Positions 2,999 to 55,954 of a DNA stretch of 64,000 nt are shown one piece after another. The stretch's first letter is position 1. Every line of letters starts with the position of its first letter. The position numbers and the translations under genes are program-made. Below the pieces are notes generated by a model. That model was not told the DNA's origin and searched no databases. It was given only the letters and a program-made list of their open reading frames with translations. The DNA is from Methylotenera sp. G11 (GTDB lineage Bacteria > Pseudomonadota > Gammaproteobacteria > Burkholderiales > Methylophilaceae): positions 1,302,001 through 1,366,000 of the forward strand of contig NZ_JUHH01000001.1 of the NCBI RefSeq assembly GCF_000799735.1, in the 5' to 3' direction.

Positions 2999-3040
2999 CG
3001 CCCTTTGCCATACCCCCATGCATCGGCATTGAACAACACG

Positions 3041-3070: not shown

Positions 3071-3090
3071 GCAATAAAAACATGACCATG

Positions 3091-3414
3091 CTAGCCTTGA
3101 TGATCAGCCATTTCGCATATGGTCTGGCTAGGCTTGAAAATAACCTCCGGGCTTGATGAAGGCCGGGGACTCATGTTTGCGGCGAGATTGCCGCCTGCCG
3201 CGCCCGGCTTAATATTCAGCCTGAACGTACCAAAACCTCGCAGCTCTATGCGGCCGCCGCCAATCAATCGTGCTGACATCGCTTCAATAATAATCTCGGC
3301 TGATAGCAGCACATCCTTTTCGGTCAGATCAGGAAACCTTGCTGCGAGCTTTGCAATCAACTGATGCATAAACGTGGTTTCCTGTGCTGCATGCTGTGGT
3401 TTATGGTCGTGCAT
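3091..3414 (-). CDS. Atypical IHF/HU-family DNA-binding protein
   Basis: A 107-residue member of the IHF/HU superfamily. The start at 3414 is chosen because GGGAGGA lies 6-7 bp upstream of that ATG; an in-frame GTG five codons earlier lacks a site. An extra N-terminal stretch of ~15 residues rich in His and Gln precedes the helical part (LIAKLAARFPDLTEKDV), followed by the family core GRIELRGFGTFRLN. The DNA-binding arm is unusual: where IHF/HU proteins carry R-x-G-R-N-P-x-T-G, this protein reads KPGAAGGNLAANMSP, so the intercalating proline and the arm arginines are missing or displaced. It may bind DNA without the usual sharp bend, or bind a partner. It is a single gene. Confidence 0.75.
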   Translation of the reverse strand: MHDHKPQHAAQETTFMHQLIAKLAARFPDLTEKDVLLSAEIIIEAMSARLIGGGRIELRGFGTFRLNIKPGAAGGNLAANMSPRPSSSPEVIFKPSQTICEMADHQG

Positions 3415-3630
3415 AATTCTTCCTCCCACCTGAAATAACCAGCTGTATAAACCTATGGGTTATTTTGACGCATCCATATTTAACATGGGAAATTATTCCA
3501 TAAATAATAAAAATAATCATCTTATAAAATGACGCCATGGATGATAAATATGCAGCCACCTGCTGCTGCCAATTGTGACGATGGGTTCAGCGTGCTATCC
3601 TGCGGCCAATCGATTATTCAAGAAGCACCC

Positions 3631-4887
3631 ATGTCATCAAGCACCCCTCACTCTGTCGCAATCATCGGTGGCGGCCCCGCCGGCCTGATGGCGGCAGAAG
3701 TACTATGCCGGGGCGGGGTGAAAGTAGATGTTTTTGACGCGATGCCAAGCGCAGGCCGTAAATTCCTGATGGCTGGCAAGGGTGGCATGAACATTACGCA
3801 TTCAGAACCACTGCCCGCTTTTGCCGCGCGGTATGGCAACCGCCAGAAAGATATCGCACCCTTGCTGGAAACCTTCGGCCCGCAGGCACTGCGCGAATGG
3901 ATACATGCACTCGGGATCGAAACCTTTATCGGCACATCCGGGCGGGTATTTCCGCGTGAAATGAAAGCGGCGCCTTTGCTGCGATCATGGCTGCACCGGT
4001 TGCGCGAAGCCGGTTGCAGCTTTCACATGCGCCACCGCTGGTTTGGCTGGAATGAAGAAAATGCGCTGCGCTTTACCGTTGCCGGTCAAGAGAAAACCAT
4101 TCAGGCTGATGCAGTGATACTGGCGTTAGGCGGCGGCAGCTGGGCCAGGCTAGGGTCCGATGGTTTGTGGGTTCCGCTGCTTGAGCAGCGTGGCATTCCG
4201 GTTGCAGCACTGAAACCTGCAAACTGCGGCTTCGATACCTCCTGGAGCGAACACTTCAGCACCCGCTTTGCCGGTCAGCCTGTAAAAACCGTGACACTGT
4301 CCTATATAGATATGGCAGGCATGACACACCGTAAACAGGGTGAACTCATGATCACCGCGAACGGTATTGAAGGCGGTTTGATCTATGCCTTGTCGTCCGG
4401 ACTGCGTGACAGCATAAGCGCATCCGGAACAGTTCAGGTTTACCTCGATTTGCTGCCGGATACAAGCATCGATCAGGTGATGAATGAAATCGCGCACCCG
4501 CGCGGTTCAAGATCAATGTCCAGCCATCTGCAAAGCCGTCTTGGCATCAAGGGCGTTAAAGCGGGGCTGCTGCGGGAGCTGGTAACGGCCCAGGATTATG
4601 CTGATCCCAGGCTGCTGGGCGCCGCCGTAAAGTCTTTACCGCTGACGCTTTCGGCAACGCGCCCGCTGGATGAGGCCATCAGCAGTGCAGGCGGCGTGAT
4701 GTTTGAAAGCATGGATGAGCGCCTGATGATCCGCGGCTTGCCCGGCGTATTCTGCGCCGGAGAGATGCTGGACTGGGAGGCGCCCACCGGCGGCTACCTG
4801 CTGACCGCATGCTTTGCAAGCGGCAAAGCTGCCGGGCAAGGCGCACTGGACTGGCTACAGGGCAAAGCCTCCCGAACCACAGAATAA
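3631..4887 (+). CDS. NAD(P)/FAD-dependent oxidoreductase of the HI0933/YhiN family
   Basis: A flavoprotein of ~418 residues. It begins with an FAD-binding Rossmann motif, VAIIGGGPAGLMAAEVL, at residues ~7-23, and has the family's second signature GRKFLMAGKGGMNITHSE. A glycine-rich ALGGGSWARLGSDG segment lies mid-protein, and a C-terminal FAD contact GVFCAGEMLDWEAPTGGYLL closes the fold. The longer frame opens at 3529, but the 34 extra residues do not resemble the family and the Rossmann fold normally begins within ten residues of the start, so the ATG at 3631 is preferred. The substrate of this family is not established. It is a single gene, convergent with the membrane cyclase downstream. 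Confidence 0.87.
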   Translation: MSSSTPHSVAIIGGGPAGLMAAEVLCRGGVKVDVFDAMPSAGRKFLMAGKGGMNITHSEPLPAFAARYGNRQKDIAPLLETFGPQALREWIHALGIETFIGTSGRVFPREMKAAPLLRSWLHRLREAGCSFHMRHRWFGWNEENALRFTVAGQEKTIQADAVILALGGGSWARLGSDGLWVPLLEQRGIPVAALKPANCGFDTSWSEHFSTRFAGQPVKTVTLSYIDMAGMTHRKQGELMITANGIEGGLIYALSSGLRDSISASGTVQVYLDLLPDTSIDQVMNEIAHPRGSRSMSSHLQSRLGIKGVKAGLLRELVTAQDYADPRLLGAAVKSLPLTLSATRPLDEAISSAGGVMFESMDERLMIRGLPGVFCAGEMLDWEAPTGGYLLTACFASGKAAGQGALDWLQGKASRTTE

Positions 4888-4944
4888 CAGGCTACGAAGC
4901 AACTCAGCCGCATCTGAGCGGGCAGCCTCACCAGGATTCAGGCA

Positions 4945-7461
4945 TCAATGCACACTGTTGATTTCATAGAACCTGACCTGGTTACTGCCGGAATCCTTGG
5001 CGCGATACATCGCATTATCGGCGCGCTTCAGGATTTCTTTCTGGCTGATTTCATTGCCGATAAATAAAACGACACCGATACTTGCAGTGCAATGATGCAC
5101 CACTGTCGTTTCCTCACCCGATTCGGCCATCACTTTCAATACGTAGGGCTCAGCCAGCAGCTGGCGTATCTTGTCTGCTGCGGACTCGGCTTCTTTCTGG
5201 GATAGCCCCCTATCCGTATCAAGCTGCTCCAGCTCAACCACAAACTCGTCACCGCCGATGCGTGCCACAGTGTCTGCCGCACGCACAGAGCTTTTCAGAC
5301 GGGCTGCCACCTCGATCAACAGCAAGTCACCAACCACGTGCCCATAGCTGTCGTTAAGCTGCTTGAAGTTATCCATATCCAGGAACATCAATGCTCCATA
5401 ACAGCTGGTACGCTTGCTTTTCACCATGGCCTGCCGCAGCCGGTCTTCAAACAGATAGCGGTTAGGCAGCTGGGTCAAGCCGTCATACAGCGCCTGGTAA
5501 CGGATCTGTTCTTCCATGAGTTTACGCTCGGTGATATCAGTGTGCGTGCCGCACATGCGAATGGCTTTATGATTGGCATCACGCTCGACTACCTGCGCCT
5601 GGTCGAGTACCCACTTATACTGCCCATCCTTGGTTTGCATGCGATATTCAATACTGTGCAATGACGCTACCCCCTCCAGGCAATCCTGAATGGATTTGTA
5701 AGCCATTGCCTGGTCATCCGGGTGGATAAAGTCAATCCATTGCTTCACCGTCAGCTCGATATCTTTCAGGCTATAGTCCAGCATCTTTGCCCAGCGTTCA
5801 TTCCTGACCACTTTATTGCTTGCAATATCCCAATCCCAAAAACCAAGCTGGCTCGCATCCAGCACCAGCGCAAGCTGTCGCTCCCTGTCATGCAGCTGTA
5901 CCTCAGCTGCATTTTTATCAAGCGCGACACTGATCAGATCGGCGCACTGCTCGATCAGCGTAATATCCGCCGCGCTGGGTTGGTTAATTTCACGATGATA
6001 GATTGCCAGCGTGCCCAGCACATGATGCATCGAAGACCTGATCGGCTGCGACCAGCAAGCAGCCAAACCGGCACTGGCAGCGAGCTGTTTGTACAATTGC
6101 CAGTAAGGGTGCGTGGCGATATCATCCACGATCACGCGTTCACCGACCACAGCCGCAGTCCCGCAAGAGCCCTTGCCCACGCCGACTTCTATCCCTTTGA
6201 TGGCATCATTATAAAATGTCGGCAGACTAGGGGCGATCACATCGACCAGCCGCTTGCCTGCATCATCCAGCAGCAGGATACTGCATATCATTTCAGGGTG
6301 AATCGCCTCAATACCGGTCACGATGGCCAGCATCACCTGCTCAATCGGCTCGCCACGCGCCAGCATCACCAGTATGCGGTTACGGAACTGCATGAGGGCT
6401 TCCTGTAGTTTCAATGCCGAAATATCCGTGTGTATGCCCACCGCACGAAGCGGGTTTCCGGCACTGTCACGGTCGACCACCAGGCCCCGGGTAAGAATCC
6501 ATTTATAGCTTCCGTCCTTGCAAAGCAGGCGATGCTCAGTGGAATAGCTAGGGGTTTTCTGTGCGAAATGTCGGTTCACTGCGGCTAAAGTTGCAGCCTT
6601 ATCCTCAGGGTGTATACGCTTATTCCATTCATCCTGGCCATCGCCGACCTCGTCTTCAGTGTAGCCCAGCAGCTCTTTCCACCTTTTTGAATAAACCACC
6701 TTTTCATTCACCACATCCCAATCCCAGACACCGCCGCCCGAACCTTCTACGGCTAACTTCCAGAGAGCATCGCTTTCTTTAAGCTCAGTCAAAGCCTGTT
6801 GTGTACGCTCAACAGCATCCGAATGCTGAAATTGCAACCGTGTGCTTACAATCAGCATCAGCGTTAACGGAAGCCACATACTGAGCAGCAGCGCATAAAT
6901 ATATGGCACGGCCTCAACCAGCTGCAAAGTGCTATAGTCAGCAGGGGCAGCCTGTAACGGCGGGTTCAGTGCGCGGTAAATGAACAGGATGGCGCCGGCT
7001 GCAAATATCAGCGCCGCAATACGCCTCGTTATTCTCAGTTTATGCTCACCTTTAGCCCAGAACAGGACGCTACAGGCCGCAAAGAATAAAGCATGTAGTG
7101 ATGAAATTGCTGTGATACGCTGTGAAATGTCCGGCACCAGCACACAGATCAGAAATGCAAGGCCGACCGCGTACCATTGCCACTGGTGCCCGGCATCTTC
7201 GCGCAGCAGCATGCGCGCGCCCGCGTACATAAATCCGAGGCCAAGCATGATTACCGTATTAGCGATGACCTCGGAAAAAAAAACGGATGTATACCCATGC
7301 ATCCCAAGCAGGAACAAACCGGACGCGACCAGCAGCGCAGACAGCCCCCAATACTTCATGCTGCGCTCATGCGGCACGAGGTGCCACAGCATCATCGCTA
7401 TAAAGACAAAACCGACAAAGCTCACCGTTGCGATGAGTCGCAGGGTATTTAACTCAATCAT
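4945..7461 (-). CDS. Membrane-anchored PAS-GAF-PAS-GGDEF diguanylate cyclase
   Basis: An 838-residue multidomain sensor. Residues 1-~215 hold about seven hydrophobic helices (a MASE-like membrane sensor). A short coiled linker follows, then PAS/PAC 1 (~230-355), a GAF domain (~370-520, with GKGSCGTAAVVGERV and DDIATHPYW), PAS/PAC 2 (~535-660) and a GGDEF domain (~670-835). The GGDEF domain shows YDGLTQLPNRYLFEDRL, LDMDNFKQLNDSYGHVVGD and RIGGDEF. RAAD five residues before GGDEF is an intact inhibitory RxxD site. No EAL domain is present, so it should only make cyclic-di-GMP. It is monocistronic. The ligand of the membrane domain is unknown. Confidence 0.88.
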   Translation of the reverse strand: MIELNTLRLIATVSFVGFVFIAMMLWHLVPHERSMKYWGLSALLVASGLFLLGMHGYTSVFFSEVIANTVIMLGLGFMYAGARMLLREDAGHQWQWYAVGLAFLICVLVPDISQRITAISSLHALFFAACSVLFWAKGEHKLRITRRIAALIFAAGAILFIYRALNPPLQAAPADYSTLQLVEAVPYIYALLLSMWLPLTLMLIVSTRLQFQHSDAVERTQQALTELKESDALWKLAVEGSGGGVWDWDVVNEKVVYSKRWKELLGYTEDEVGDGQDEWNKRIHPEDKAATLAAVNRHFAQKTPSYSTEHRLLCKDGSYKWILTRGLVVDRDSAGNPLRAVGIHTDISALKLQEALMQFRNRILVMLARGEPIEQVMLAIVTGIEAIHPEMICSILLLDDAGKRLVDVIAPSLPTFYNDAIKGIEVGVGKGSCGTAAVVGERVIVDDIATHPYWQLYKQLAASAGLAACWSQPIRSSMHHVLGTLAIYHREINQPSAADITLIEQCADLISVALDKNAAEVQLHDRERQLALVLDASQLGFWDWDIASNKVVRNERWAKMLDYSLKDIELTVKQWIDFIHPDDQAMAYKSIQDCLEGVASLHSIEYRMQTKDGQYKWVLDQAQVVERDANHKAIRMCGTHTDITERKLMEEQIRYQALYDGLTQLPNRYLFEDRLRQAMVKSKRTSCYGALMFLDMDNFKQLNDSYGHVVGDLLLIEVAARLKSSVRAADTVARIGGDEFVVELEQLDTDRGLSQKEAESAADKIRQLLAEPYVLKVMAESGEETTVVHHCTASIGVVLFIGNEISQKEILKRADNAMYRAKDSGSNQVRFYEINSVH

Positions 7462-7528
7462 GAGATGCTCTTCTTGTTGATTTTTATCAACAAATTATAA
7501 GCATTAATTCATCGCTGTGTTAAAAAAT

Positions 7529-7556
7529 TAAAAAGCCGCACACAGGCGGCATTTTT
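7529..7556 (-). terminator. Intrinsic terminator of the metal-efflux operon
   Basis: On the minus strand GCCGC, a 6-nt loop and GCGGC are followed by TTTTT, 15 bp beyond the stop of the DUF3240 gene. Flanking A/T tracts also make it usable from the other side. Confidence 0.7.
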
Positions 7557-7570
7557 ATACACGAAGATCA

Positions 7571-7888
7571 TTAAACGGATTGCGCAGCAAGCACCGGCAG
7601 CAGCATATAGTGCAGGCCTGCACCCTCGAACTTAATCCTGATTTCAGCTATGACCGCCTGCAGAACCGGCAATGGCGCATGCAGCATGAACTGCACCCTG
7701 CCTTGCCGCCCGCTCACCTGCTCAACCAGGCTGAGCCTTTCCGTGCCCCGCACAGTGCCATGGCCGCTCACCGGCATGCTGGTGAATCCGGTTATGGCCT
7801 GCTGCTGTAATAAAAAGTCTACCAGCACCTCTTCCAGCCTGGGCGGCGCGATCAATATTAGAAGTGCTTCCACTGCATGTTCCTGCAT
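7571..7888 (-). CDS. DUF3240 family protein of a metal-efflux operon
   Basis: A 105-residue protein that I recognise as DUF3240, a small PII-like ferredoxin-fold family usually encoded as the last gene of CzcCBA-type operons. It shows an alternating strand/helix pattern: EALLILIAPPRLEEVLVDFLL, then a loop containing GHG, and RVQFMLHAPLPVLQAVIAEI in the second half. It has no signal peptide, so it should be cytoplasmic. It starts 11 bp after the RND pump stop, so the two are almost certainly co-transcribed and perhaps translationally coupled. PII-like proteins next to transporters often bind nucleotides or metal and adjust transport; that role here is inference. Confidence 0.75.
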   Translation of the reverse strand: MQEHAVEALLILIAPPRLEEVLVDFLLQQQAITGFTSMPVSGHGTVRGTERLSLVEQVSGRQGRVQFMLHAPLPVLQAVIAEIRIKFEGAGLHYMLLPVLAAQSV

Positions 7889-7899
7889 CCCTTTTACTC

Positions 7900-10800
7900 C
7901 TATTTGAAAAACCGACGGTAAAAAATCGGCAGCAGTACTAAAGTCAGCACCGTTGAACTCACCAGCCCACCGATCACAACCACAGCTAGCGGCCGCTGTA
8001 TCTCAGAACCCGGGCCAGTAGCAAACAGCAGCGGAATCAGGCCGAATGCCGTGATACTCGCCGTCATCAATACAGGCCTTAACCTGCGCTTCGCACCCTC
8101 GACTACAATATCAAACACCGCCATCCCCTGCGCTTCGAGCTGATTGAAGTAACTGACCATCACCACGCCATTCAGGACCGCAATGCCTAGCAGCGCAATA
8201 AAGCCAACCGAAGCCGGCACCGACAGGTACTCACCCGACAGCCACAAGGCAAATACGCCGCCTATCATGGCAAAAGGAATATTGGACAGAATCAATAACG
8301 CCTGTTTCACAGAACCGAAGGTAGCGAACAACAGCAGGAACACCAGGGCGACCGCTGCCGGCACCACGATCGCCAGGCGCGCGGCGGCACGTTGCTGGTT
8401 CTCGAACTGGCCACCCCATTTGATAGAGTAGCCTTCGTCCAGCTTCACTTCCGTGGCTACGCGCTGCTTTGCTTCTTCCACAAAACTCACCAGGTCACGG
8501 TCACGCACATTGGCGGTGACGATGACATTGCGTGCGCCGCGTTCCCGGTCTACTTTCACCGGCCCCTCTTCCCGCATGACTTTTGCAACCGCGCCCAACG
8601 GAATATTGGCCCCGCTCGGCAATGTCAGCATCAAGTTATCAAAGTCCGCCGGCGAATCACGCAATGCCTGGCTGCCCCTGATCAGCACCGGCGTACGCCT
8701 TTGCCCTTCCTGCACCACGCCTAGCTGCTTGCCTTCCAGCTGTGCAAGCAGTATCGACTGAATTTCGGTAACATCCAACCCCAGGCGCCCTGCTGCCGCG
8801 CGGTCTATTTTGACTTGCAGGTACTGCACGCCGCTGTTTTCCGGCGTATAGACATCCTGGCTGCCGGGAATGGACTCCAGAATTTTGATGATCTGCTGCG
8901 CTTTCTGGTCCAGGGTTTTGAGGTCATGTCCGAAAATCTTGATCGCCAGGTCACCGCGCACGCCGAGGATCATTTCATTCACGCGCATATCAATCGGCTG
9001 GGTAAAACTATAAGCCAGCCCCGGCAGCTGATGCATGACCTTGCGCAGCTCATCGATCAATGCCGCCTTGCTTTCCACGCGCCATTCATTCGCAGGCTTC
9101 AGGATCAGGAAATTATCGGTCTGGTTCAAACCCATCGGATCCAGGCCAAGCTCATCAGAACCTACGCGAGAATAAATGCCCTGCACTTCCGGCACCTGCG
9201 CCAGGATGGTTCGCTGCACGTTCAAGTCAGTGCTGATGGTTTGCTGCAAGTTGATGGAAGGCAACTTCTCGACACCGATAATAATGTCGCCTTCATCCAT
9301 GACCGGCATGAATATTTTGCCGATCTGCATATACACCACGCCGGTAAAGGCCAGCATCACAAACGCACCGATCACAATCACCCTGGCATGCGCCAGGCAC
9401 CATTGCAGCGCTGGCTCATAAACCGCCAGCGCCTTCCTCACCAGCCAGGGCTCCGCATGGCTGACTTCCTTCAGCAGAAATGAAGACAACACCGGAATCA
9501 CGGTGAGCGACAGCAGCAGCGAGCCCGCCAGCGCAAACATGATCGTCAGCGCAACCGGCGTAAACAGCTTGCCCTCAAGTCCCTGCAATGTCAGCAGCGG
9601 CAGGAACACCGTAATGATAATGATCACGCCTGCCGTGACCGGCACGCTGACTTCACGTACCGCACGGTAAATCACATGCATTCTCGGCAAGATGCCCGCC
9701 TGCTTTTTATCGGCAAGGTGCGACACGATATTTTCCACCACGACCACCGCGGCATCCACCAGCATGCCGATCGCTATCGACAGGCCACCCAGGCTCATCA
9801 GGTTGGCAGACATGCCAAAATAATGCATGAGCAGAAAAGTAAACAAGGCGGAAAGCGGCAGGATAAATGCGATCGTGAGTGCCGCCCTGAAGTTGCCGAG
9901 AAACAGCACCAGCAACACCAGCACCAGCACCACCGCTTCCTGCAAGGCCTTGGTTACTGTGTTTACCGCACGCTCAACCAGGCTGCCGCGATCATAAAAC
10001 ACTTTGATTTTGACGTCTTTCGGCAGGCTGGGGGCCATCTCGGCAAGCTTTTCCTTGACGCCTTTTACCACCTGCTGTGCGTTGGCGCCACGCAGCCCCA
10101 GCACCAGGCCTTCTACCGCTTCACCCTGGCCGTTTCCGGTCACCGCGCCGTAACGGGTCAGGGAACCGATGCGCACATCCGCCACATCCGCCACTCTGAC
10201 CGACATGCCCTGATCTGTACGCAGAACCGTGTTCTGCACATCTTCTATTGTTTTGAAGCCGCCTTCAGACCTTACCAGCAACGCCCCCTCGCCATCGCTC
10301 AACCGGCCGGCACCGCCATTACGGTTATTATTCACCAGCGCCTCTTGCAGCACTTGAATGGAGACGCCACGCGCATACATGCGGGCATTATCCGGCACGA
10401 TTTCAAAACTGCGTACCAGGCCGCCAAGGGCATTCACATCCGCCACCCCCGCTACCGTACGCAACTGCGGTCGAATCACCCAGTCCAGCAGGCTGCGCCG
10501 TTCCTGCAGGCTTAAGGTATCGCTTTCTATGGTGAACATGAACATTTCGCCCAGCGGTGTGGTCATGGGTGCCATGCCACCGGTCACATCGGCCGGCAGA
10601 TTACCCCATACGGCATTCAGGCGTTCGGCCACCTGCTGGCGTGCCCAGTAGATATCGGTACCATCGATGAAATCCACCGTGATGTCAGTAAGTGCATACT
10701 TAGCTACCGACCTCAGGCCGGACTGCTTGGGAATCCCCAGCATCTCGACCTCGATCGGTGCCGTGATGCGCGCCTCAACTTCTTCCGGCGTCATGCCGGG

Positions 10801-48195: not shown

Positions 48196-48356
48196 AATAT
48201 ATGGACACCTACAACAAAAGCAACCCGCGTGCCAATTAATATTTATTAAGCAATATCAATCAGTTAATATTAACTATCAGTATTTACAATGCATTAATAA
48301 TACTTAAATTGCGCATTAATCTATATTAAAAACTGTAAAATTCATACAATATTTGC

Positions 48357-48370
48357 GGGAAAAATTACCG
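48357..48370. promoter_or_regulatory. 14-bp dyad related to the adhesin-operon site
   Basis: GGGAAAAATTACCG lies between the cytochrome b561 gene and att-like repeat A. It shares the GGGAA..TT.CCG skeleton of the sites at 35450, 40930 and 41048. Its target gene is unclear; cytochrome b561 is the nearest. Confidence 0.3.
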
Positions 48371-48402
48371 CACCAATACCGCGCCCCGTATAAGCAAAAC
48401 GC

Positions 48403-48655
48403 AAAAAGAAAAAGCCTAGTCATTTCTGACTAGGCTTTATATCTTGGTAGGGCATGTGGGGATCGAACCCACAACAAACGGATTAAAAGTTGTTATAACA
48501 AATTGATTTTTAATGTTATTTGTTCGCCCTCTTTCGCCAATACTCGCTGACACTCGTTAAAGTTGTCACGTTTAATATTTTAGAATGGCAACAATCGGCC
48601 AATTGCTGACCATCGTCAATTTACTGTATCCGGTGCTTAAGCGGGACAAAGTGGT
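48403..48655. repeat. att-like repeat A: drifted tRNA-Lys 3' half plus recombination region
   Basis: From left to right: a terminator hairpin like that of the tRNA-Lys (48411-48438); a 46-bp copy of the tRNA-Lys 3' half (48445-48490) with several substitutions relative to the native tRNA; the core GATTAAAAGT followed by the 12-bp palindrome TTGTTATAACAA; and ~160 bp shared with repeat B (TACTCGCTGACACTCG, GAATGGCAACAATCGG, GACCATCGTCAATTTAC). This marks the outer edge of the island. It accounts for most of the 474-bp gap 48196-48669. Confidence 0.85.
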
Positions 48656-48669
48656 CATTCACAGTTAAA

Positions 48670-49305
48670 CTATTTCTTGGTATTCGCTGGCCAGTTCTGC
48701 ATGGCAATATCAATAATATCCATGAGCGCATCCTTGCTTGCGCCACTAGAAGCTTGTACTGAAATCCCCTGATGAATGGTGGCGACGTATTTTGCCAGTG
48801 CAGTTGTATTGGCACCTTCAGGCAAATCTCTTTTTTCCTTCGCTAAATCAAATCGTTTTTTTAAACTTTCTTCCAAATTGGCACGATACGCGATGAGTTT
48901 TTTCTGCATCATTTCTGCTTCTGGCCCACAAGATAATGCACCTTGCACAATCATGCATCCTCGTGGATTTTGATGTTGGGTTAGTAGCTCCACGGCTTTA
49001 GTAAGAAACGTTTTAGCTACCAGATAAGAAGTGGGCTCTGCCATCGCCTCCTTCACAAATGCGCTTGGGCCAGTGACATATTTATCTAAAACTTGATTAA
49101 ACAAAGCTTCCTTATTGCCAAAAGCTGCATAGATACTAGGTTTATTCATACCCATGGCTTCGATAAGTGCTGCCATAGAAGTGCCTTCATAGCCAAACGT
49201 CCAAAATGTTTGCATGGCTTTTTCTAGCGCATCTTCATAGTTAAATGCAGGCGGTCTCCCGCGTCGTTTTAGAACATCTGCTTGTTGATCTTCTGTGCTA
49301 CTCAT
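48670..49305 (-). CDS. TetR-family repressor
   Basis: A 211-residue regulator. The N-terminal helix-turn-helix covers residues ~20-65 (ALEKAMQTFWTFGYEGTSMA, LIEAMGMNKPSIYAAFGNKE, where GMNKPSIYAAF is the recognition helix). The C-terminal ligand domain is helical, with the TetR_C motif NPRGCMIVQGALSCGPEAE. It is divergent from the SDR gene across a 126-bp gap that contains two TACC-N4-GGTA operator candidates around a sigma-70 promoter, so it very likely represses the SDR/DUF2798/hydrolase operon and perhaps itself. The inducer is unknown; similar YxaF/LmrA-type and AcuR-like repressors sense small organic compounds. Confidence 0.9.
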   Translation of the reverse strand: MSSTEDQQADVLKRRGRPPAFNYEDALEKAMQTFWTFGYEGTSMAALIEAMGMNKPSIYAAFGNKEALFNQVLDKYVTGPSAFVKEAMAEPTSYLVAKTFLTKAVELLTQHQNPRGCMIVQGALSCGPEAEMMQKKLIAYRANLEESLKKRFDLAKEKRDLPEGANTTALAKYVATIHQGISVQASSGASKDALMDIIDIAMQNWPANTKK

Positions 49306-49337
49306 AAGTTAACTCACATGTGATATTTTTAATATTA

Positions 49338-49404
49338 TACCATTCGGTAATAAATGTGTTGACATATTAATGAATGCCCTTTATTATTTATTTACCGTTT
49401 GGTA
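49338..49404 (+). promoter_or_regulatory. SDR-operon promoter flanked by two TetR-type operators
   Basis: TACCATTCGGTA (49338-49349) and TACCGTTTGGTA (49393-49404) are matching palindromes, 55 bp apart start to start. Between them lies TTGACA (49359-49364), a 17-bp spacer and TATTAT (49382-49387), a near-consensus promoter. The second operator starts six bases after the -10, so it covers the transcription start. Confidence 0.8.
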
Positions 49405-49431
49405 CATATTAAATAAATGATGGAGAAAAGA

Positions 49432-50175
49432 ATGAGTAATCATGAAAACAAGGTGGCTTTTATCAGTGGCGCGAATCGTGGCATTGGCTTTGAAACAGCC
49501 AGAAAATTAGGAGAGCTTGGGATAACAGTCATTATCGGTGCACGCGACGTCGCGAAAGGTAAAGCAGCCGCTAATGACTTAATTTCAAGAGGAATAAAAG
49601 CAGATGCAATTTACTACGACGCGAATGACGTAAAATCCGCACACGATGTTTATGATTATCTTGATAAACATTACGGGAAGTTAGATATTCTTGTGAACAA
49701 TGCAGGCGTCAACCACGAGCAATTGATGGGCAAGAATAACAGTAGCTCTTTAAGCAAAGATGCTTTACAGAATACATTCCAAACCAACTTATTTTCCGTA
49801 ATTGAAATTACACAGAGATTATTGCCCTTAATTAGCAAAGCGCCTGCTGGTCGCATTGTGAATCTATCTAGCATACTGGCATCACTAACTCTGCACAGTA
49901 TGCCAAACTCCCCAATAGATCCTGCTAAAGCGTTTGCCTATAACGCTTCAAAGACAGCATTAAATGTCTATACGGTTCATTTAGCCCACGAGTTGCGTGA
50001 TACCAATATCAAAGTGAACTCCGCACACCCAGGTTGGGTAAAAACTGAGCTTGGCGGTGAACATGCGCCAATGGAAGTTGCAGATAGTTACAAAACCAGT
50101 GTTTACCTTGCCACATTAGATGAAAATGGTCCAAGCGGTGGTTTTTTCCATGAAACAGACCCACTCCCTTGGTAA
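49432..50175 (+). CDS. Short-chain dehydrogenase/reductase
   Basis: A ~247-residue classical SDR, an NAD(P)-dependent oxidoreductase of carbonyl compounds. The coenzyme motif SGANRGIGFETARKLGELG is at the N-terminus, the structural NNAG in ILVNNAGVNHE, the catalytic Ser in VNLSS and the Tyr/Lys pair in AYNASKTALN. The downstream segment VNSAHPGWVKTELGGEHAPM resembles carbonyl-reductase-like members. The ATG at 49432 is chosen since GGAG lies 8 bp upstream; the frame opens five codons earlier. It is the first gene of the TetR-controlled operon. The substrate is unknown; it may detoxify reactive carbonyls. Confidence 0.9.
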   Translation: MSNHENKVAFISGANRGIGFETARKLGELGITVIIGARDVAKGKAAANDLISRGIKADAIYYDANDVKSAHDVYDYLDKHYGKLDILVNNAGVNHEQLMGKNNSSSLSKDALQNTFQTNLFSVIEITQRLLPLISKAPAGRIVNLSSILASLTLHSMPNSPIDPAKAFAYNASKTALNVYTVHLAHELRDTNIKVNSAHPGWVKTELGGEHAPMEVADSYKTSVYLATLDENGPSGGFFHETDPLPW

Positions 50176-50189
50176 GTTAGGAAATAGAC

Positions 50190-50426
50190 ATGGCTAAAAA
50201 AATTCCATTTCGTTACCGCGTATATTGTTTTGCGCTAGTAATGTCATTTTTTACATCAATGATTGTCTCCGGCACTGTGATTAGTTTGCGCACTAGCGCT
50301 CTTGAGGGATTTTTACATATTTGGCCATCGTCTTTCGCGATTGCATGGCCAATTGTATTTATCGCGATTCTTATCATCGCACCGCTTGTTAACAAATTTT
50401 TAAATGTGTTTATTGAGTCTAGCTAA
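50190..50426 (+). CDS. DUF2798 small membrane protein
   Basis: A 78-residue inner-membrane protein of the DUF2798 type: two hydrophobic helices (FALVMSFFTSMIVSGTVISL, FAIAWPIVFIAILIIAPLVN) joined by a short loop with FLHIWPSS, and a basic N-terminus (MAKKIPFRYR). Length and layout are as expected for the family, whose function is not known. It lies 14 bp after the SDR gene and 19 bp before the hydrolase gene, inside one operon. Confidence 0.8.
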   Translation: MAKKIPFRYRVYCFALVMSFFTSMIVSGTVISLRTSALEGFLHIWPSSFAIAWPIVFIAILIIAPLVNKFLNVFIESS

Positions 50427-50445
50427 AAGTAAGGAATAACCAATA

Positions 50446-51297
50446 ATGAATCACATCTCCAAGTTAGAACAACTTCAGGAAATTAACATAGGTGCCAACT
50501 GCACACTCCGATACCTAAAAGCAGGTGCTGGCAAGCCACTCATTTTGATGCATACCATACGGACGCAATTAGATTACTTTCAGGAAGTAATTCCCGAGTT
50601 AGCAAAACACTATACAGTTTATGCAGTGGATTTACCTGGTCATGGCAGATCGTCTATCGATACAAGAGTCAATTACGATGAACCTTATATGCGAAAAGCA
50701 ATAGTCGCTTTTATTGAAAAATTAGATTTAAGCGACGTCACGCTGGTAGGCGAATCGATAGGCGCAGTGTTGGCGCTTACAGTGGCTAATGAGGTACCGG
50801 AGCGTATTATCAAAGTAATTTCCTCTAACACCTACGACTACGAAACCCGTTATGCCGATGGTTTACGCAGGGGAAATATATTTTCGAATATCGTGATTGC
50901 CAATTATGCAGTACCCATCCATGGTGCAATCTTTGCCCTATTTGAAAACTGGCTATTTTTAGGCCTGGCAATGAAAGGTGGTTTAAGAAATAAAAGCTGG
51001 ATGCCCTCTAAGCTCTTAAGTGAATTTAATCGCACAGGATTCCGCAGAGGCTATAGATATGTGGAGCGTAACGTTTTTGCTAACTGGCGATCATGGAATA
51101 AAGCAAGAGCGCAATATACTGGTGTAAAAGCACCAGTAACCTTAGTTTACGGCGATCATGACTGGTCAACAATTCCTGAGCGTCAGCGCACTGCAAAAGC
51201 ACTGGGTAACATCAATATCATTACGTTAGAAAATACAGGGCATTTTGGATTTGTGGACAACCCCAAAAAATTATTAGAAGTAATTTTAAAACTTTAA
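50446..51297 (+). CDS. Alpha/beta hydrolase
   Basis: A 283-residue alpha/beta-hydrolase-fold enzyme. The oxyanion region is in LILMHTIRTQLDYF, and YAVDLPGHGRSS follows strand 4. The nucleophile elbow is GESIG (LVGESIGAVLAL), the acid is probably Asp in VYGDHDWSTIP, and the catalytic His is in LENTGHFGFVDNP. Together they form a full Ser-Asp-His triad. It ends the TetR-controlled operon; together with the SDR it may process a small ester or a hydroxy/keto compound. Specificity cannot be read from the sequence. The 230 bp after it, up to repeat B, contain nothing I can identify. Confidence 0.88.
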   Translation: MNHISKLEQLQEINIGANCTLRYLKAGAGKPLILMHTIRTQLDYFQEVIPELAKHYTVYAVDLPGHGRSSIDTRVNYDEPYMRKAIVAFIEKLDLSDVTLVGESIGAVLALTVANEVPERIIKVISSNTYDYETRYADGLRRGNIFSNIVIANYAVPIHGAIFALFENWLFLGLAMKGGLRNKSWMPSKLLSEFNRTGFRRGYRYVERNVFANWRSWNKARAQYTGVKAPVTLVYGDHDWSTIPERQRTAKALGNINIITLENTGHFGFVDNPKKLLEVILKL

Positions 51298-51530
51298 CCA
51301 TTAGCTGTTAAAGATGATTTTCATGGAGTTAACTCAGTATAAATACAGGTTATGCAGAGTAACTCCATAAAAGACTACCTAAATTAATGATGTTTGGAAT
51401 GGCAGCTATGCGGATTAACACGCCTTCGGCATGTTAGCGGCGACCTGCCATAGATTTTCAATTAGTGAATTACCGAAAGAACTCTAAGAAGCAATTTGAA
51501 ACTTTCAGTCTACTATAAGGCTACTAAAAA

Positions 51531-51785
51531 AAGAAAAAGGCTTAGCCATTTCTGACTAAGCCTTATATATCTTGGTAGGGTGTGCGGGGATCGAACCCAC
51601 GACAAACGGATTAAAAGTTGTTATAACAAATTGATTTTTAATGTTATTTACTCGACCTCTCTCGCCAATACTCGCTGACACTCGTCAAAGTTGTCACGTT
51701 TAAGATTTTCGAATGGCAACAATCGGTCAATTGCTGACCATCGTCAATTTACGGTATCCGGCGCCTAAGCCGGACAAAGCAGACG
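51531..51785. repeat. att-like repeat B: 88-bp copy of the tRNA-Lys 3' end and its terminator
   Basis: Positions 51531-51618 match 55663-55750 with no difference seen, covering the tRNA terminator hairpin and the 46 bp of the tRNA-Lys 3' half up to the anticodon stem. The core GATTAAAAGT, the palindrome TTGTTATAACAA and ~165 bp similar to repeat A follow. With the native tRNA it brackets a 4.1-kb unit as direct repeats. It takes up the middle of the 684-bp gap 51298-51981. Confidence 0.92.
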
Positions 51786-51839
51786 GTCATTTATTCAATA
51801 TTTAATCAAATTCAATTACAATCAATCAAGTGGTGCTGC

Positions 51840-51960
51840 GTCTCTATATTAATATTTCAATATAGAGACCGAGAAACAATAAAACCAAGAAAAGACAAGG
51901 GGTTCCAGCCATGCGTCATGCAATTACATTTATTAATATAGAGACCCATGGGCCTCTATA
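51840..51960. repeat. Inverted repeats with TATAGAG arms upstream of the GNAT gene
   Basis: GTCTCTATATT (51840-51850) and AATATAGAGAC (51859-51869) form an 11-bp perfect hairpin with an 8-nt loop. Further on, TATAGAG and CTCTATA (51937-51960) flank the palindrome CCCATGGG, giving a nearly perfect 24-bp dyad 21 bp before the GNAT start. The two elements share the TATAGAGAC arm. Confidence 0.7.
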
Positions 51961-51981
51961 ATTACTGTTGGGCCCCATGAA

Positions 51982-52461
51982 ATGAGCGCGAACTTCACGA
52001 TCCAAAGGGCGCATGCCAACGACGCGCAGGAGGTTGCTGTAATGGTTGGCGAGCTACTGGCTGAAATCATGAACGCCATTGGTGTTCAGGCGTTCAACTT
52101 CGACCTTGCCGAAACGACATCCAGACTCCAGGATTTCCTTAACCGTGAGAAGTATTTTGTATTTGTCGCTTGTGGCGAGAGTGGAAATCCGGTAGGTTTT
52201 ATTGCCCTTTATGAAAGCTATGCCCTTTACGCTGAGGGCGCTTTCGGCACCATGCCTGAACTTTACGTTCGTCCGGGGTACCGCACAAATGGGCTGGGCC
52301 TTCGTCTCGTATCCCAAGCAAAGTCTTTCGGAGTGTCGCGTGGCTGGACACGGTTGGAGGTTACAACGCCGCCGCTGCCGCAGTTCGACAGAACTTTGGC
52401 GTTTTATGAGCGTGAGGGTTTCGCTATAAGTGGTGGCCGCAAACTGAAGGTCTCTCTGTGA
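51982..52461 (+). CDS. GNAT-family N-acetyltransferase
   Basis: A 159-residue acetyltransferase using acetyl-CoA. The GNAT fold is visible: strand pair FVFVACGESGNPVGFIALYE, AFGTMPELYVRPGYRTNGLG with the CoA-pyrophosphate loop (R-x-x-G-x-G/A appearing as RTNGLG), LRLVSQAKSFGVSRGWTRL, and the C-terminal ALAFYE-like TLAFYEREGFAISGG. The acceptor is unknown. Its base composition and codon use (many GCC, GGC, CTG, CGC) are richer in G+C than the neighbouring AT-rich genes, which suggests recent transfer. It lies alone between repeats B and C. Similar single-gene GNATs are common in mobile cassettes. No antibiotic-specific motif is evident. Confidence 0.87.
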   Translation: MSANFTIQRAHANDAQEVAVMVGELLAEIMNAIGVQAFNFDLAETTSRLQDFLNREKYFVFVACGESGNPVGFIALYESYALYAEGAFGTMPELYVRPGYRTNGLGLRLVSQAKSFGVSRGWTRLEVTTPPLPQFDRTLAFYEREGFAISGGRKLKVSL

Positions 52462-52483
52462 TCTGTGACCCACCCCATCATTC

Positions 52484-52518
52484 CACCGGACCTGCGGGAA
52501 AAGCCGCGCAGGCCGGTG
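52484..52518. terminator. Strong GC hairpin downstream of the GNAT gene
   Basis: CACCGG-A-CCTGCG pairs with CGCAGG-CCGGTG around a short loop, 22 bp after the GNAT stop, without a T-tract. A small hairpin at ~52535 (GTCCGC/GCGGAT) follows. The 397-bp gap 52462-52858 also contains repeat C. Confidence 0.5.
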
Positions 52519-52619
52519 AATTCAGACGTTGACAGTCCGCTTAGCGGATGTTGCAGCCAGTCATTCTTAATTTTGTATGTTCCTTAGCATCGTGACAGCG
52601 CTCGGTCACAGCCTCACAA

Positions 52620-52835
52620 TAACCTATTGATTTTATTCGCAAATAATAGAATTAAAAGTTGTTATAACCAATTGTTTTTAAATAAAAATAACCCGCCACC
52701 ACTCGCTAGTCATCGCTGATAACCGTCATAATTTTCATGTTTAATGTTTTTTCTAATGTCCATACTTGGCCCTTAACGGTCAACTACAATTATTACTACA
52801 TCCGGCAACTAAGCGGAGAAAGCAGACGATTGGAT
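52620..52835. repeat. att-like repeat C: conserved core, different left flank
   Basis: The core GAATTAAAAGTTGTTATAAC (52649-52668) followed by CAATTG and a TTTTTAAAT arm matches A and B. Weaker similarity continues through ACTCGCTAGTCATCGCTGA and CATCCGGCAACTAAGCGG. In place of the tRNA fragment the left flank reads TAACCTATTGATTTTATT, which is shared with repeat D. Confidence 0.7.
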
Positions 52836-52858
52836 ATTCATTGGTAGAAATATATGCT

Positions 52859-53134
52859 TCATTGGCCAATTGAAAACATGGCATCTAAATCATGTTTTGA
52901 ATAGGTTTTATATGCTAGCAAGGTGTCTGTTTTTTCAATGCTGTCTAACTTTAACAAGTGATTTGTTACAAGTGCTGAAAGATCATCAATATTCTGTACT
53001 CGTACTATGGCAATCAGATCATATCGGCCGCTGACAGAAAACACCTCTGATATTTCAGTCATGTCATTCAATAGTTCAGCTGTTTCATTGATTTTGTGTC
53101 TTTCAATATTCATTAAGATAATGGCTGAGATCAT
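52859..53134 (-). CDS. Stand-alone Lrp/AsnC ligand-binding (RAM) domain protein
   Basis: A 91-residue protein that is only the RAM domain of the Lrp/AsnC family, with no DNA-binding helix-turn-helix. Pattern: AIILMNIERHKINETAELLN, the typical EVFSVSGRYDLIAIVRVQNI (family consensus V-x-x-x-x-x-G-x-x-D), LSALVTNHLLKLDSIEKTDT and the end TLLAYKTYSKHD. Stand-alone RAM proteins bind amino acids or small metabolites and form rings or join partner regulators. It is alone between repeats C and D on the minus strand. Its target is unknown. Confidence 0.87.
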   Translation of the reverse strand: MISAIILMNIERHKINETAELLNDMTEISEVFSVSGRYDLIAIVRVQNIDDLSALVTNHLLKLDSIEKTDTLLAYKTYSKHDLDAMFSIGQ

Positions 53135-53205
53135 GATTTTGTGTATTCCTTTTTAGAAATATATTTACAACTTTTGAAGCAATAATTTATTGTCACGCCG
53201 ACATG

Positions 53206-53365
53206 TAACCTATAGATTTTGTTGAATTTAAATAGGATTAAAAGTTTCTATAACCAATTGATTTTTAATACAATTAACTCGAAATTACTAGCCAATTATC
53301 GCCGACAACTTTCATAAAAAGTCACATTTTTAATTTTAAAAACAGCGGCTATCTTCGCCAATAAC
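53206..53365. repeat. att-like repeat D: third flank variant
   Basis: The core GGATTAAAAGTTTCTATAAC (53234-53253), then CAATTGATTTTTAAT, matches the A/B core arms. Downstream traces remain (ATTATCGCCGACAACTTTC, AAAAAGTCACATTTTTAATT, CTATCTTCGCCAATAACTG). The left flank TAACCTATAGATTTTGTT is like that of repeat C (29 of 39 positions agree with C over the flank and core start). Confidence 0.65.
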
Positions 53366-53391
53366 TGATGTTTGAAACTAAATCATGCGGC

Positions 53392-54288
53392 TTACATTGC
53401 CGCATTCCATATCCGCACGCAATTCCTCCCCGCGGCTTTTGCTGCATACATTGCCTTATCCGCACGATCAATCGACGTTTCAACCGGCACATCAGGATCA
53501 AGGAGCACCACACCAAAAGATGCCGTAATATAAATCGGTTTTTTTCCATTGCACTCAATGGGCATCAAGGCTAGTCCTTCGCGCAAACGCTCCATCATGT
53601 CGTAGCAAGCCGCTAATTCAGTGTGCTGCATTAATAACAGGAACTCTTCCCCACCATAGCGGAATACTTTGTCATAAGGTCGGAGATGTTCGATGATGTA
53701 ATGAACAAAAGTTGTCAACACGCAGTCGCCTGCCAGATGCCCATGGACATCGTTGACCGTCTTAAAATGGTCTAAATCTACCATGACAACACAGCAAGGC
53801 GGTAATTTGCGTTTTACTAATTCCTGCTGCTCACGAAGGGCTGGCAGGATACCTACTTTAGTAATCGCACCGGTAAGTGAATCGTGGTTGTAAAGCACGT
53901 TTTCCAATTCGTGCTCTAAGGCTGATATTTCAAGGCGCAACCGTTCTAGTGAGTTAGAGAAATTGTCAAAGTCAAAGGTGCTAACAGGTTTCCCTTTTTT
54001 TGCTTTCACCAGCAATTTTGCTGCCCGCTCGTGCATGAGTTTATGCGCTTCTCCCAAAGCAACAAATCCAGAAAGATCACGCAATTTCTCAGGGATTTTA
54101 CTGTAGTACCATTGACCGAAGCGGCACGCCTCATGAGCATGAGGCGCAATATCATGTTGGTCTGCCGGCAACTGGCAAGCGAGTGCACGAACTAAGCCCG
54201 CATACCACTGGTTGTGATTAAAGAGAGCTTGCTCCAGCTGATTGAGCATTGCTTGCAGCTCATCTCGGGTCAGATCATAGAGTTCCAT
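53392..54288 (-). CDS. dgcZ: Zinc-responsive diguanylate cyclase, DgcZ (YdeH) type
   Basis: A 298-residue cytosolic cyclase. The N-terminal ~125 residues form a CZB (chemoreceptor zinc-binding) domain with the expected His/Cys set: H25 in LFNHNQWYAGLV, C56 in HEACRFGQWYYSKIP, and two His in EAHKLMHERAA. The GGDEF domain (~135-298) has HDSLTGAITKVGI, MVDLDHFKTVNDVHGHLAGD and RYGGEEF, with an RxxD inhibitory site (RPYD) five residues before. In Escherichia coli the homologue has the same domain order and near-identical length (296); zinc binding inhibits it. It lies between repeat D and the YegP-like gene on an island, an unusual place for a cyclase. Confidence 0.88.
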   Translation of the reverse strand: MELYDLTRDELQAMLNQLEQALFNHNQWYAGLVRALACQLPADQHDIAPHAHEACRFGQWYYSKIPEKLRDLSGFVALGEAHKLMHERAAKLLVKAKKGKPVSTFDFDNFSNSLERLRLEISALEHELENVLYNHDSLTGAITKVGILPALREQQELVKRKLPPCCVVMVDLDHFKTVNDVHGHLAGDCVLTTFVHYIIEHLRPYDKVFRYGGEEFLLLMQHTELAACYDMMERLREGLALMPIECNGKKPIYITASFGVVLLDPDVPVETSIDRADKAMYAAKAAGRNCVRIWNAAM

Positions 54289-54320
54289 TTAATTCTCCCG
54301 TGACTTCAATACTAGATGTA

Positions 54321-54440
54321 ATGTTTCGTGTAATAGTAGCATTTATGCATGAATATCTAGATTTAGAATCAGCAATGACTTTACTCAAATCTCTCCTTCC
54401 TGATGCAGAGTGGTTTATAGCTCAAGTTGAGTCGAAATAG
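54321..54440 (+). CDS. Possible small protein, 39 residues
   Basis: An ORF beginning ATGTTTCGTG that would encode MFRVIVAFMHEYLDLESAMT and a further 19 residues ending in QVESK. It has no recognisable family, a weak ribosome binding site, and lies in the gap between the divergent dgcZ start and the YegP-like gene end. It could be a decayed fragment. Low confidence. Confidence 0.25.
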   Translation: MFRVIVAFMHEYLDLESAMTLLKSLLPDAEWFIAQVESK

Positions 54441-54507
54441 GGAATTTTTAAATGCGCGTCAACAGACCTGCTACCGTGAGATGAAAAAACAATGATTTCT
54501 AAGCTTA

Positions 54508-54837
54508 TTACAGCTTAACAACAACTGCTCCTGGGGCGTGATTCTTAACCGACTCAATACCATTATCTCTTGCCGTGGCGGTCTCATATGACTCGCTAGC
54601 TCCTATAATCTGGCTATTAGCCGCCTTGAGATTAAACATGAATTTACCCGAGCTTGTTAACTTTCGTTCATAGCTACTGTCAATAGTGGCATTTTTCTTC
54701 ACTGACTCTATGCCGTTATTGCAACCTGACTTAGCTTTATAACCCTCACTTGTTAAAATTGTCTGTCCGTTAGAAGCTTTTAGCCTAAACCTGAACTCGT
54801 CCGCTTTATCAGTGTAAATTTCAAATTTTCCAGCCAT
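54508..54837 (-). CDS. YegP-like (UPF0339/DUF1508) protein
   Basis: A 109-residue protein made of two DUF1508 repeats. The first runs FEIYTDKADEFRFRLKASNG with GYKAKSGCNNGIESVKKNA, the second KFMFNLKAANSQIIGASESY with ETATARDNGIESVKNHAP. Each is a beta-beta-beta-alpha unit with the G-I-x-S-V-K-x-x-A helix typical of the family. The function is not known. The start at 54837 has AGGAGAAAG upstream. It lies on the island between dgcZ and the broken integrase; its promoter region directly abuts the truncated integrase N-terminus. Confidence 0.88.
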   Translation of the reverse strand: MAGKFEIYTDKADEFRFRLKASNGQTILTSEGYKAKSGCNNGIESVKKNATIDSSYERKLTSSGKFMFNLKAANSQIIGASESYETATARDNGIESVKNHAPGAVVVKL

Positions 54838-54856
54838 ATCTTTCTCCTATTTTTAG

Positions 54857-55677
54857 TTACAAAGGATACATGAATATTTAGGTGACTTAACTCTGAACCA
54901 GATTAATGGTGATGTAATCTGGAACATCATCCAAGGTGAAATGAAGCGTGGAAATAAGACTGCAACGGTGAATCGTCATTTGGCGGTCACTAGGGCAATT
55001 TTAAGAATGGCGCGGGATGAGTGGCAGTGGATTGATGCGATGCCTAAAATCCGATTGTTGTCGGGTGAGGTTGAACGCGATCGCTGGCTAACACGTGATG
55101 AGGCTAATCGGTTGATCGAAGCTTCACCGCCTCATTTAGCGGCTTTAATACGCTTTGCTTTAGCTACGGCTGCCGTGCTGGGAAGATCACCAGTCTTGAA
55201 TGGCATCGGGTCGATTTAGATCGTAAAACGGCTTGGTTAGACAAGACTAAAAATGGAACACCGAGAGGTGTACCGCTAAATTCGGATGCGATTGAAGTAT
55301 TGTTGTCGGTGCAAGGAAACCATTCCTAATACTGCTTCACTTATCAAAAACAACCGATTAAAACGGCAATAACGAATCATGCTTGGTATGCCGCAATTGA
55401 GAAAGCGGGCTTGAATGATCTAAGGTTTCACGATCTCAGGCATACATGGGCATCATGGCATCATGGCATCATGGCATCATGGCATCGTCAGGCTGGCACT
55501 TCATGCGATGAGTTGAAAGACTTAGGCGGATGGAAGTCACGTTCGATGGTAGATCGTTATGCAAAGTTTGCTACGGAACACTTAACCGTCGCCGCGTCTA
55601 GGATTGAAACTGGACGCACCGCAAACGTGATGGATTTGGTCACGTTTAAGTCACGCCAAGAAAAGAAAAAGGCTTAG
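54857..55677 (+). pseudogene. Tyrosine recombinase (phage-type integrase), inactivated and N-terminally truncated
   Basis: The remains of a site-specific integrase. The core-binding domain survives (HEYLGDLTLNQINGD, KTATVNRHLAVTRAILRMA), then the catalytic domain: box I as GCRAGKITSLEW (Arg at 55174-55176), [39 protein letters not shown] with the Tyr nucleophile. Three faults are seen: the first ~70 residues are missing (an in-frame stop at 54854 and the YegP-like promoter region precede it); a one-base deletion near 55168 (ACGGC for expected ACGGGC) shifts frame; and TAA at 55327-55329 interrupts it. An 8-bp repeat expansion adds eight residues after [11 protein letters not shown]. The last codons overlap the tRNA-Lys terminator. 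Confidence 0.88.
55449..55480 (+). repeat. 8-bp microsatellite inside the integrase remnant
   Basis: Four tandem copies of GGCATCAT followed by GGCATCG. Three extra units (24 bp, in frame) insert eight residues just after the HxxR catalytic box; slippage is the likely cause. Confidence 0.85.
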
Positions 55678-55696
55678 CCATTTCTGACTAAGCCTT
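55669..55696 (-). terminator. tRNA-Lys terminator, overlapping the integrase 3' end
   Basis: AAGGCTTAG and CTAAGCCTT form a 9-bp stem with a 10-nt loop; on the minus strand it is followed by TTTTTCTTTT. The integrase stop codon TAG lies in one arm. The same hairpin is present in repeat B and, with changes, in repeat A. Confidence 0.9.
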
Positions 55697-55704
55697 ATAT
55701 ATCT

Positions 55705-55780
55705 TGGTAGGGTGTGCGGGGATCGAACCCACGACAAACGGATTAAAAGTCCGCTGCTCTACCAGCTGAGCTAACACCCC
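55705..55780 (-). tRNA. tRNA-Lys, anticodon TTT
   Basis: A complete 76-nt cloverleaf on the minus strand: acceptor GGGGTGT pairing with ACACCCT (one G-T), D-arm with AGCTCAGCTGGTAGAGC, anticodon stem-loop GCGGACTTTTAATCCGT with anticodon TTT, T-arm GTGGGTTCGATCCCCGC and encoded CCA. It is the integration target of the island. Integration rebuilt its 3' half, and copies of that half lie at 48445 and 51573. Its promoter and terminator are intact, so it should be functional. Confidence 0.96.
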
Positions 55781-55822
55781 ATTCGTTTCTCAAGTAATTT
55801 GTGTCACTCAGGAAAGGCCGCA

Positions 55823-55851
55823 ATTATGGGGGAAACTATTCACTTGGTCAA
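55823..55851 (-). promoter_or_regulatory. Sigma-70 promoter of tRNA-Lys
   Basis: On the minus strand TTGACC (55851-55846), a 17-bp spacer with a C-run, and CATAAT (55828-55823) end 42 bp before the tRNA 5' end. Confidence 0.75.
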
Positions 55852-55954
55852 TGACAAAATAGAAAATTTTCATATTTTTATCGCATTTATTTTTATTGAC
55901 TTCGGCATGATTTTATACATGCCGGAATTTACCCCAAAATTGCCTTAATTTTAA

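Follow-up and report, generated by a model that had tools for sequence, protein, structure and literature searches.

Between positions 48,398 and 55,780 of a 64,000-nucleotide stretch of the Methylotenera sp. G11 genome (2.55 Mb, a single contig; the whole stretch is called the window here), an array of small gene units beside a tRNA-Lys gene, with recombination sites of phage-integrase type between the units, resembles an integron, is built differently, and recurs in other Betaproteobacteria. The explanation that we favour, at a probability of roughly 0.6, is site-specific recombination in a tRNA-anchored array made up of two kinds of unit, where cassettes enter at the left site with integrase acting in trans. 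Type I would be a small integrative element (median 6.4 kb) that encodes a tyrosine integrase and a replication-initiation-like (Rep-like) protein, integrates into the anticodon loop of a tRNA gene, and restores that gene via a 3' half carried next to the integrase gene. Type II would be an integrase-less cassette of 0.6-4.2 kb, with few genes and no tRNA half, carrying a compact complete attP: a left arm (P); an integration host factor (IHF)-like site; a core; and a right arm (P'), often with a second IHF-like site. A type II circle would recombine with a type I element already in place, at the latter's left site (tRNA half-core-P'), and new cassettes would stack there as integron cassettes do at attI.

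The window contains exactly four related sites, A to D, as the initial annotation had proposed. A profile built from 15 complete sites, all from genomes other than the window's, scores B at 85.1, A at 75.3, C at 67.7 (E 2.5e-20) and D at 47.9 bits (E 3.2e-14). Elsewhere in the 64 kb no match exceeds 5.0 bits, and 200 dinucleotide shuffles (11.5 kb) reach 7.5 bits at most. C and D are only 71% and 61% similar to A over 109 nt, as might be expected of chance resemblance in AT-rich DNA, an outcome that the initial annotation had named as fatal to its proposal. With both sites scoring far above the shuffles in a window-free model, this explanation was rejected and is exceedingly improbable. Repeat searching returns one four-copy family (starts 48,473, 51,601, 52,642 and 53,228) and a 93-nt family comprising the terminator and the tRNA 3' half (starts 48,398, 51,526 and 55,658).

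The four sites have two layouts. A and B consist of the tRNA-Lys 3' half with its terminator, the core (the anticodon loop) and P', and match the profile along core and right arm only. C and D consist of P, an IHF-like motif, the core and P'; they lack the tRNA 3' half and terminator, and match from the left arm onward. The cores start at 48,481 (A), 51,609 (B), 52,650 (C) and 53,236 (D). Site A (48,481-48,613, plus strand) follows a displaced copy of the terminator and tRNA-Lys 3' half (48,398-48,480), which matches the B copy at 65% over 93 nt and at 91% over 46 nt in its tRNA part. Site B (51,609-51,741, plus strand) follows a second displaced copy (51,526-51,608), which matches the functional one at 99% over 93 nt. 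The complete sites, assigned by score and geometry, are C at 52,594-52,746 and D at 53,180-53,332, both on the plus strand. The anchor is an intact tRNA-Lys(ttt) at 55,705-55,780 on the minus strand, located by ARAGORN and Rfam where it had first been placed; it is the sole Rfam match (E <= 0.1) over 48,300-55,900. The site starts given initially (48,403, 51,531, 52,620 and 53,206) do fall on sites, and they point to the copied terminator in A and B and to the left arm in C and D rather than to the cores. Two further details of that annotation need correction: site C reads AATTAAAAGT and not GATTAAAAGT; and the palindrome said to be common to all sites is a perfect TTGTTATAACAA in A and B only, C having TTGTTATAACCA and D having TTTCTATAACCA. 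The conserved feature is an arm of ~100 bp.

Complete sites of the C and D kind total 17 in 14 genomes (G and L numbers are our handles for genomes and loci). Two each are present in the window, G116 and G171. One each is present in G169, G158, G121, G152, G135, G452 (from another family of the order), Nitrosomonas oligotropha Nm75 (L128), an uncultured Nitrosomonas (L171), a Thiobacillus (L161), a Comamonadaceae genome (L163) and Rhizobacter sp. Root404 (L164). A GTCAC/GTTAC-like motif lies at -45/-46 in 14 of the 17 (12 with an exact TGT[CT]A[CT], two with a changed first base), and an IHF-like motif with 0-2 mismatches lies at -29/-30 in 15 of the 17; the best match falls there in 0 of 20 left-type sites. 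The site models go back to sites that were initially picked up through their resemblance to the window, hence this geometry is partly selected. Two checks bear on the selection: the leave-window-out test described above; and eight complete sites outside model R1, six of which carry the motif at -45 (its first base altered in one) and the other two at -37.

Searches with these models reach further. Within the family, R1 matches 68 of 187 genomes at E <= 0.01, with a weak tail; across the order (399 genomes), R1 gives 47 at E 0.01 and R2 gives 26 at E 0.001, mostly left-type sites, and the weak tail of the R1 searches at both levels is taken as chance. The right arm of B occurs in 23 of 187 family genomes, attached to the 3' halves of different tRNAs. 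Half sites with P only (L046, L058 at 19,416, L109, L110/L243, L111, L112, L113 and L242) stand outside the 17 because no P' follows, and a site in G253 that counted as complete by model score was dropped when reading identified a tRNA half. The opposite orientation is represented by one P'-only site (L118) and one weak match in L128.

Array order is readable in 12 genomes, the contigs of G152 and G135 not permitting it. In 12 of 12, complete sites lie to the right of a tRNA half-core-P' site, to the left of the integrase gene or tRNA, or both, and they share the orientation of the integrase gene wherever it is in view. No integrase and no Rep-like gene was detected in any of the 14 units ended by a complete site (tblastn, E 1e-3). 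These units span 586-4207 bp (median 1498) and their contents vary between arrays: GNAT, RAM and DUF6988 genes; DUF3465 with an addiction pair; unknowns; and, called by eye, GGDEF and GGDEF-EAL genes. The core equals the anticodon loop of the array's own tRNA in 13 of 15 assignable sites and is one base off in the other two, and the own tRNA class is the best core match in all 15 (Lys, Asn, Phe, Leu); for G169, G171 and L171, where the tRNA gene lies beyond the contig, tRNA identity was read from the left-site half. Order, integrase absence and core-tRNA agreement are, like the anatomy of the sites and its recurrence, read directly from the sequence. G116 and G152 have a complete site and a GGDEF gene in common (83% over 1437 nt), with differing flanks. 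Cyclic-di-GMP enzymes are recurrent cargo, with GGDEF genes (called by eye) in G116 and G152 and DgcZ in the window; GGDEF-EAL cargo, also seen by eye, is present in G121 and, next to a site with P only, in G163 (loci L043, L105, L106 and L109).

The type I elements are represented by relatives of the window's integrase, of which 80 of 105 were kept. A tRNA gene lies on the other strand, within 400 bp downstream of the integrase gene, in 59 of these 80 loci (Lys(ttt) 19, Asn 18, Phe 11, Lys(ctt) 7, Met 4), and none was found within that distance in 21. The left boundary is a tRNA-half copy in 33 elements, with a median length of 6372 bp and a range of 2162-8661 (L160 has two such copies, and the longer match was used). 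An integrase gene beside the targeted tRNA, with the displaced 3' half at the far end, is the layout of the anticodon-loop class, a name taken from PMC2647930, which in the part drawn on here describes other tRNA-borne elements. In 45 of the 59 loci, arm motifs are present in the interval from the final 75 nt of the integrase gene to the tRNA, against 49 of 2950 random segments. A complete internal site is present in four of the 33 left-site-to-tRNA elements of the named collection (L128, L161, L163 and L164).

The Rep-like protein, of ~440 aa, precedes the integrase in 32 of the 33 elements that are complete, and in 47 of the 56 loci that extend over 2.5 kb ahead of the integrase gene. Among the members scanned, none matches Pfam, PHROG or NCBIfam at E <= 0.001 (Pfam Rep_trans reaches E 0.035, below cut-off, in one of four). 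Homologues are named replication initiation factor by several sources, and six matches in plasmids, at E <= 1e-60, share 35-36% identity. Phage records yield no match to this protein at E <= 1e-5, and the integrase relatives in viral contigs (n=17) are at best 47-49% identical; a phage origin was rejected on these grounds. The intact integrase relative L041 matches Pfam Phage_integrase and PHROG integrase families and falls far below the NCBIfam cut-offs. The cargo of two such helper elements (L041 and L153) includes KAP and NACHT-LRR NTPases, which are elsewhere linked to phage defence, and the helper elements may be small defence islands.

Entry of a type II unit into the tRNA itself would cost the tRNA its 3' half, which argues for entry at the left site. 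Recombination there would presumably involve binding of the arms and of IHF, with circles as the entering form and excision as the reverse, and single units would then be mobile. Applied to the window, A would be the oldest displaced tRNA end. An element A-B would have arrived with its own 3' half, with no integrase left inside, and fits ordinary tandem accretion. A second, integrase-bearing element (D to tRNA) would have come next, and the RAM unit and later the GNAT unit would have entered at its left site. A cassette-like character is limited to B-C and C-D, each ended by a complete attP-type site that is unable to rebuild the tRNA. The site-cargo-site array on a tRNA gene with a phage-type tyrosine recombinase that was first proposed stands, such arrays recurring elsewhere with other small cargo, and needs revision in that its four sites are not equivalent.

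Plain tandem accretion followed by decay would account for the window differently: four integrase-bearing elements integrated in succession at tRNA-Lys, most of which lost the integrase in the manner of cis-mobilizable elements (CIMEs), with C and D as decayed sites of the A/B type. Accretion and CIMEs are well documented in the part of PMC5704250 used here. Unit A-B lacks an integrase and has a tRNA half at either end; the integrase beside the tRNA has itself decayed; and tRNA-half elements without integrase are present at tRNA-Phe in the same genome (L061) and at tRNA-Asn and tRNA-Lys elsewhere (L048, L051). All 14 integrase-less units are also flanked by sites of the same class and core, as accretion and CIME formation would have it. 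However, C and D do not have decayed tRNA halves as their left arms; this arm recurs with identical spacing in a further 15 complete sites from 13 other genomes. Units of 0.6-1 kb without integrase or Rep-like gene also stand beside intact integrases (G158, G452). Accretion with decay is the less probable account, at perhaps a quarter of the weight, and a CIME-like decay origin could fit A-B, whereas the type II units hold no integrase or Rep-like remains and end in P-core-P'.

A second alternative is one composite element that contains the complete sites and moves only as a unit, the inner P-core-P' being a leftover or regulatory and the small units not moving alone. The block from B to the tRNA could move as one circle, and most arrays with an intact integrase have a single internal site. 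Yet unit contents vary from array to array, the window and G171 show two complete sites after one left site, and the RAM gene of unit C-D has a separate history. This RAM (AsnC_trans_reg) domain gene (52,859-53,134, minus strand; Pfam) is 93.6% identical over 299 nt to a homologue in the near species G133, against 84.5% for ffh and 76.6% for gdhA, which suggests that it was exchanged after the species split. The G133 homologue is a solo gene behind gdhA at an unrelated locus without arms, and matches at E <= 1e-8 are present in only six of 187 family genomes; the window's copy has the look of a chromosomal gene trapped between a P' and a P arm. A composite element is improbable. The region does not appear as one element of fixed gene order in the relatives examined, the observation that was to count against the initial proposal.

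Several observations weigh against the two-unit array with entry at the left site. The P' of complete sites is nearest to the left site of its own array in only 9 of 13 cases, and the stretch common to G116 and G152 ends at the gene end, not at the core. The GTCAC/GTTAC-like motif is missing in G135 and lies at -37 in L163 and L164, which also lack the IHF-like motif at -29/-30. On the right side, an IHF-like motif at +15/16 is present in only 9 of 17 complete sites and TGTCA[CT] at +81 to +84 in only 10 of 17. The integrases of three arrays, the window's included, are N-terminally truncated. No circle, excision or strain-level presence or absence was seen in collections that hold one genome per species, and the model offers no account of the way in which RAM, a chromosomal gene, came to lie between two arms.

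The tRNA-Lys locus of relatives gives a sparse background. The arm is present in 0 of 40 ffh/tRNA-Lys loci of relatives not chosen for sites, of which four show no tRNA-Lys and at least three (L084, L092, L093) end less than 200 bp from the tRNA; the carriers G158 and G061 were known beforehand and lie outside the 40. L084 (G135) contains the window's integrase end and terminator, up to the contig end. The left flank of the array, three cytochrome-related proteins, was found in none of the 40 loci, and these loci therefore provide no clean empty site for A. In L068, L076, L088 and L099, tRNA-Lys is accompanied by 3'-half copies that belong to other elements. The terminator behind tRNA-Lys varies among relatives (L063-L102) while the tRNA is nearly identical, as if terminators had been replaced by successive integrations.

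Like integrons, the array has small promoter-poor gene units between recombination sites, stacked beside an integrase gene, with a proposed single leading entry site. In contrast to integrons, its sites are of double-arm attP type with the tRNA anticodon loop as core, and its integrase is phage-type, next to a tRNA, and not IntI (NCBIfam NF040815, 59.9 bits against a cut-off of 220). Pfam, PHROG and NCBIfam gave no IntI-type assignment for L041, a comparison in which the IntI additional domain was not searched for. The array's sites keep two arms and a tRNA-like core and in this seem unlike attC sites.

Closer likenesses are found among accreting elements. As described in the part of PMC5704250 used here, CIMEs are decayed elements that retain attL and attR, and accretion of integrative and conjugative or mobilizable elements leaves integrase-less units adjoining an integrase-bearing one, with chimeric internal att sites. 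The array shares this arrangement and differs in its units of 0.6-4.2 kb with few genes, a recurrent complete attP and no tRNA half. The ssrA islands of Dehalococcoides are likewise serial and bounded by RNA-gene repeats, with 15 of 31 lacking an integration module, and their recombinases are compared to Ccr (PMC3146451, in part). Within the same bacterial family, fGI-2 of Ca. Methylopumilus is an additive island at tRNA-Lys(ctt) of 330 bp-42 kb with recurring 20-bp repeats of that tRNA, where other small insertions are not bona fide integrons (PMC10872708, in part). The repeats of both island types are RNA-gene ends (20 bp), and the portions of these papers drawn on here describe no second class with a complete attP. 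Tycheposons, named in PMC10872708, are also tRNA-anchored, with tyrosine recombinase and cargo; at 4-200 kb they differ in size, and the comparison, made by that description only, is a lead. The array is best placed as a variant of accretion/CIME arrays. The literature covered, to which most subscription journals do not belong, yielded no account of cassettes that lack an integrase and carry complete attP sites.

More tentatively, and with the odds somewhat against it, these arrays could constitute a second, independent bacterial gene-cassette system: integrase-less cassettes with a compact double-stranded attP would be captured by the phage-type integrase of a resident tRNA-borne element and stacked at its left site. 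The system would span several tRNA platforms (Lys, Asn, Phe, Leu) in the Betaproteobacteria and could take in plain chromosomal genes, the RAM gene being an example. If cassettes do come and go at these sites, site-specific recombination would mobilise single genes that have no integron, transposon or conjugation genes to move them; the existence of one-gene islands at tRNA loci would be explained; and a sequence signature would be available for counting them.

The cargo listed initially is correct by Pfam. Unit A-B holds a TetR gene (minus strand), an SDR, a DUF2798 and an alpha/beta hydrolase gene (48,670-51,297), with no integrase match at E<1. The D-to-tRNA element holds a DgcZ-like CZB-GGDEF diguanylate cyclase gene (53,392-54,288, minus strand; Pfam, NCBIfam PRK09894), a YegP-like DUF1508 gene (54,508-54,837, minus strand; Pfam) and an integrase remnant, with no Rep-like gene found. 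The YegP-like gene, 75.7% identical over 296 nt to L053/L133, is also the first cargo gene in the Methylobacillus flagellatus L1B element. The tyrosine integrase that had been placed at the tRNA is present as a broken remnant (54,857-55,632, plus strand): tblastn alignment begins only at query residue 100 and is split over two frames. As the integrase is broken, the array is probably frozen in this genome, where a whole-genome search found no intact integrase of the family. Putative left-arm motifs of this element (two GTCACG at 55,638-55,657) were read from the letters, and the motif is present in 45 of 59 relatives. Elsewhere in the genome, the tRNA-Phe element (L061) is ~3.2 kb long with a left site and no integrase, and L062 is a P' arm without a tRNA half.

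Unit B-C contains a GNAT acetyltransferase gene (51,982-52,461, plus strand; Pfam PF00583). A dispersed repeat fills the interval between the B arm and this gene (51,755-51,981, plus strand); it is present in 29 of 187 family genomes with up to seven matches per genome, and a second copy in the same genome follows the P' arm of the tRNA-Phe element (91% over 219 nt). In 13 of 13 copies compared, similarity stops within 5 bp past ACTGTT. Integron attI/attC boundaries have the form G|TTRRRY, which the end of the repeat similarity resembles. The GNAT gene may be a former integron cassette within unit B-C; an attC-like hairpin was spotted, by eye only, 3' of the gene.

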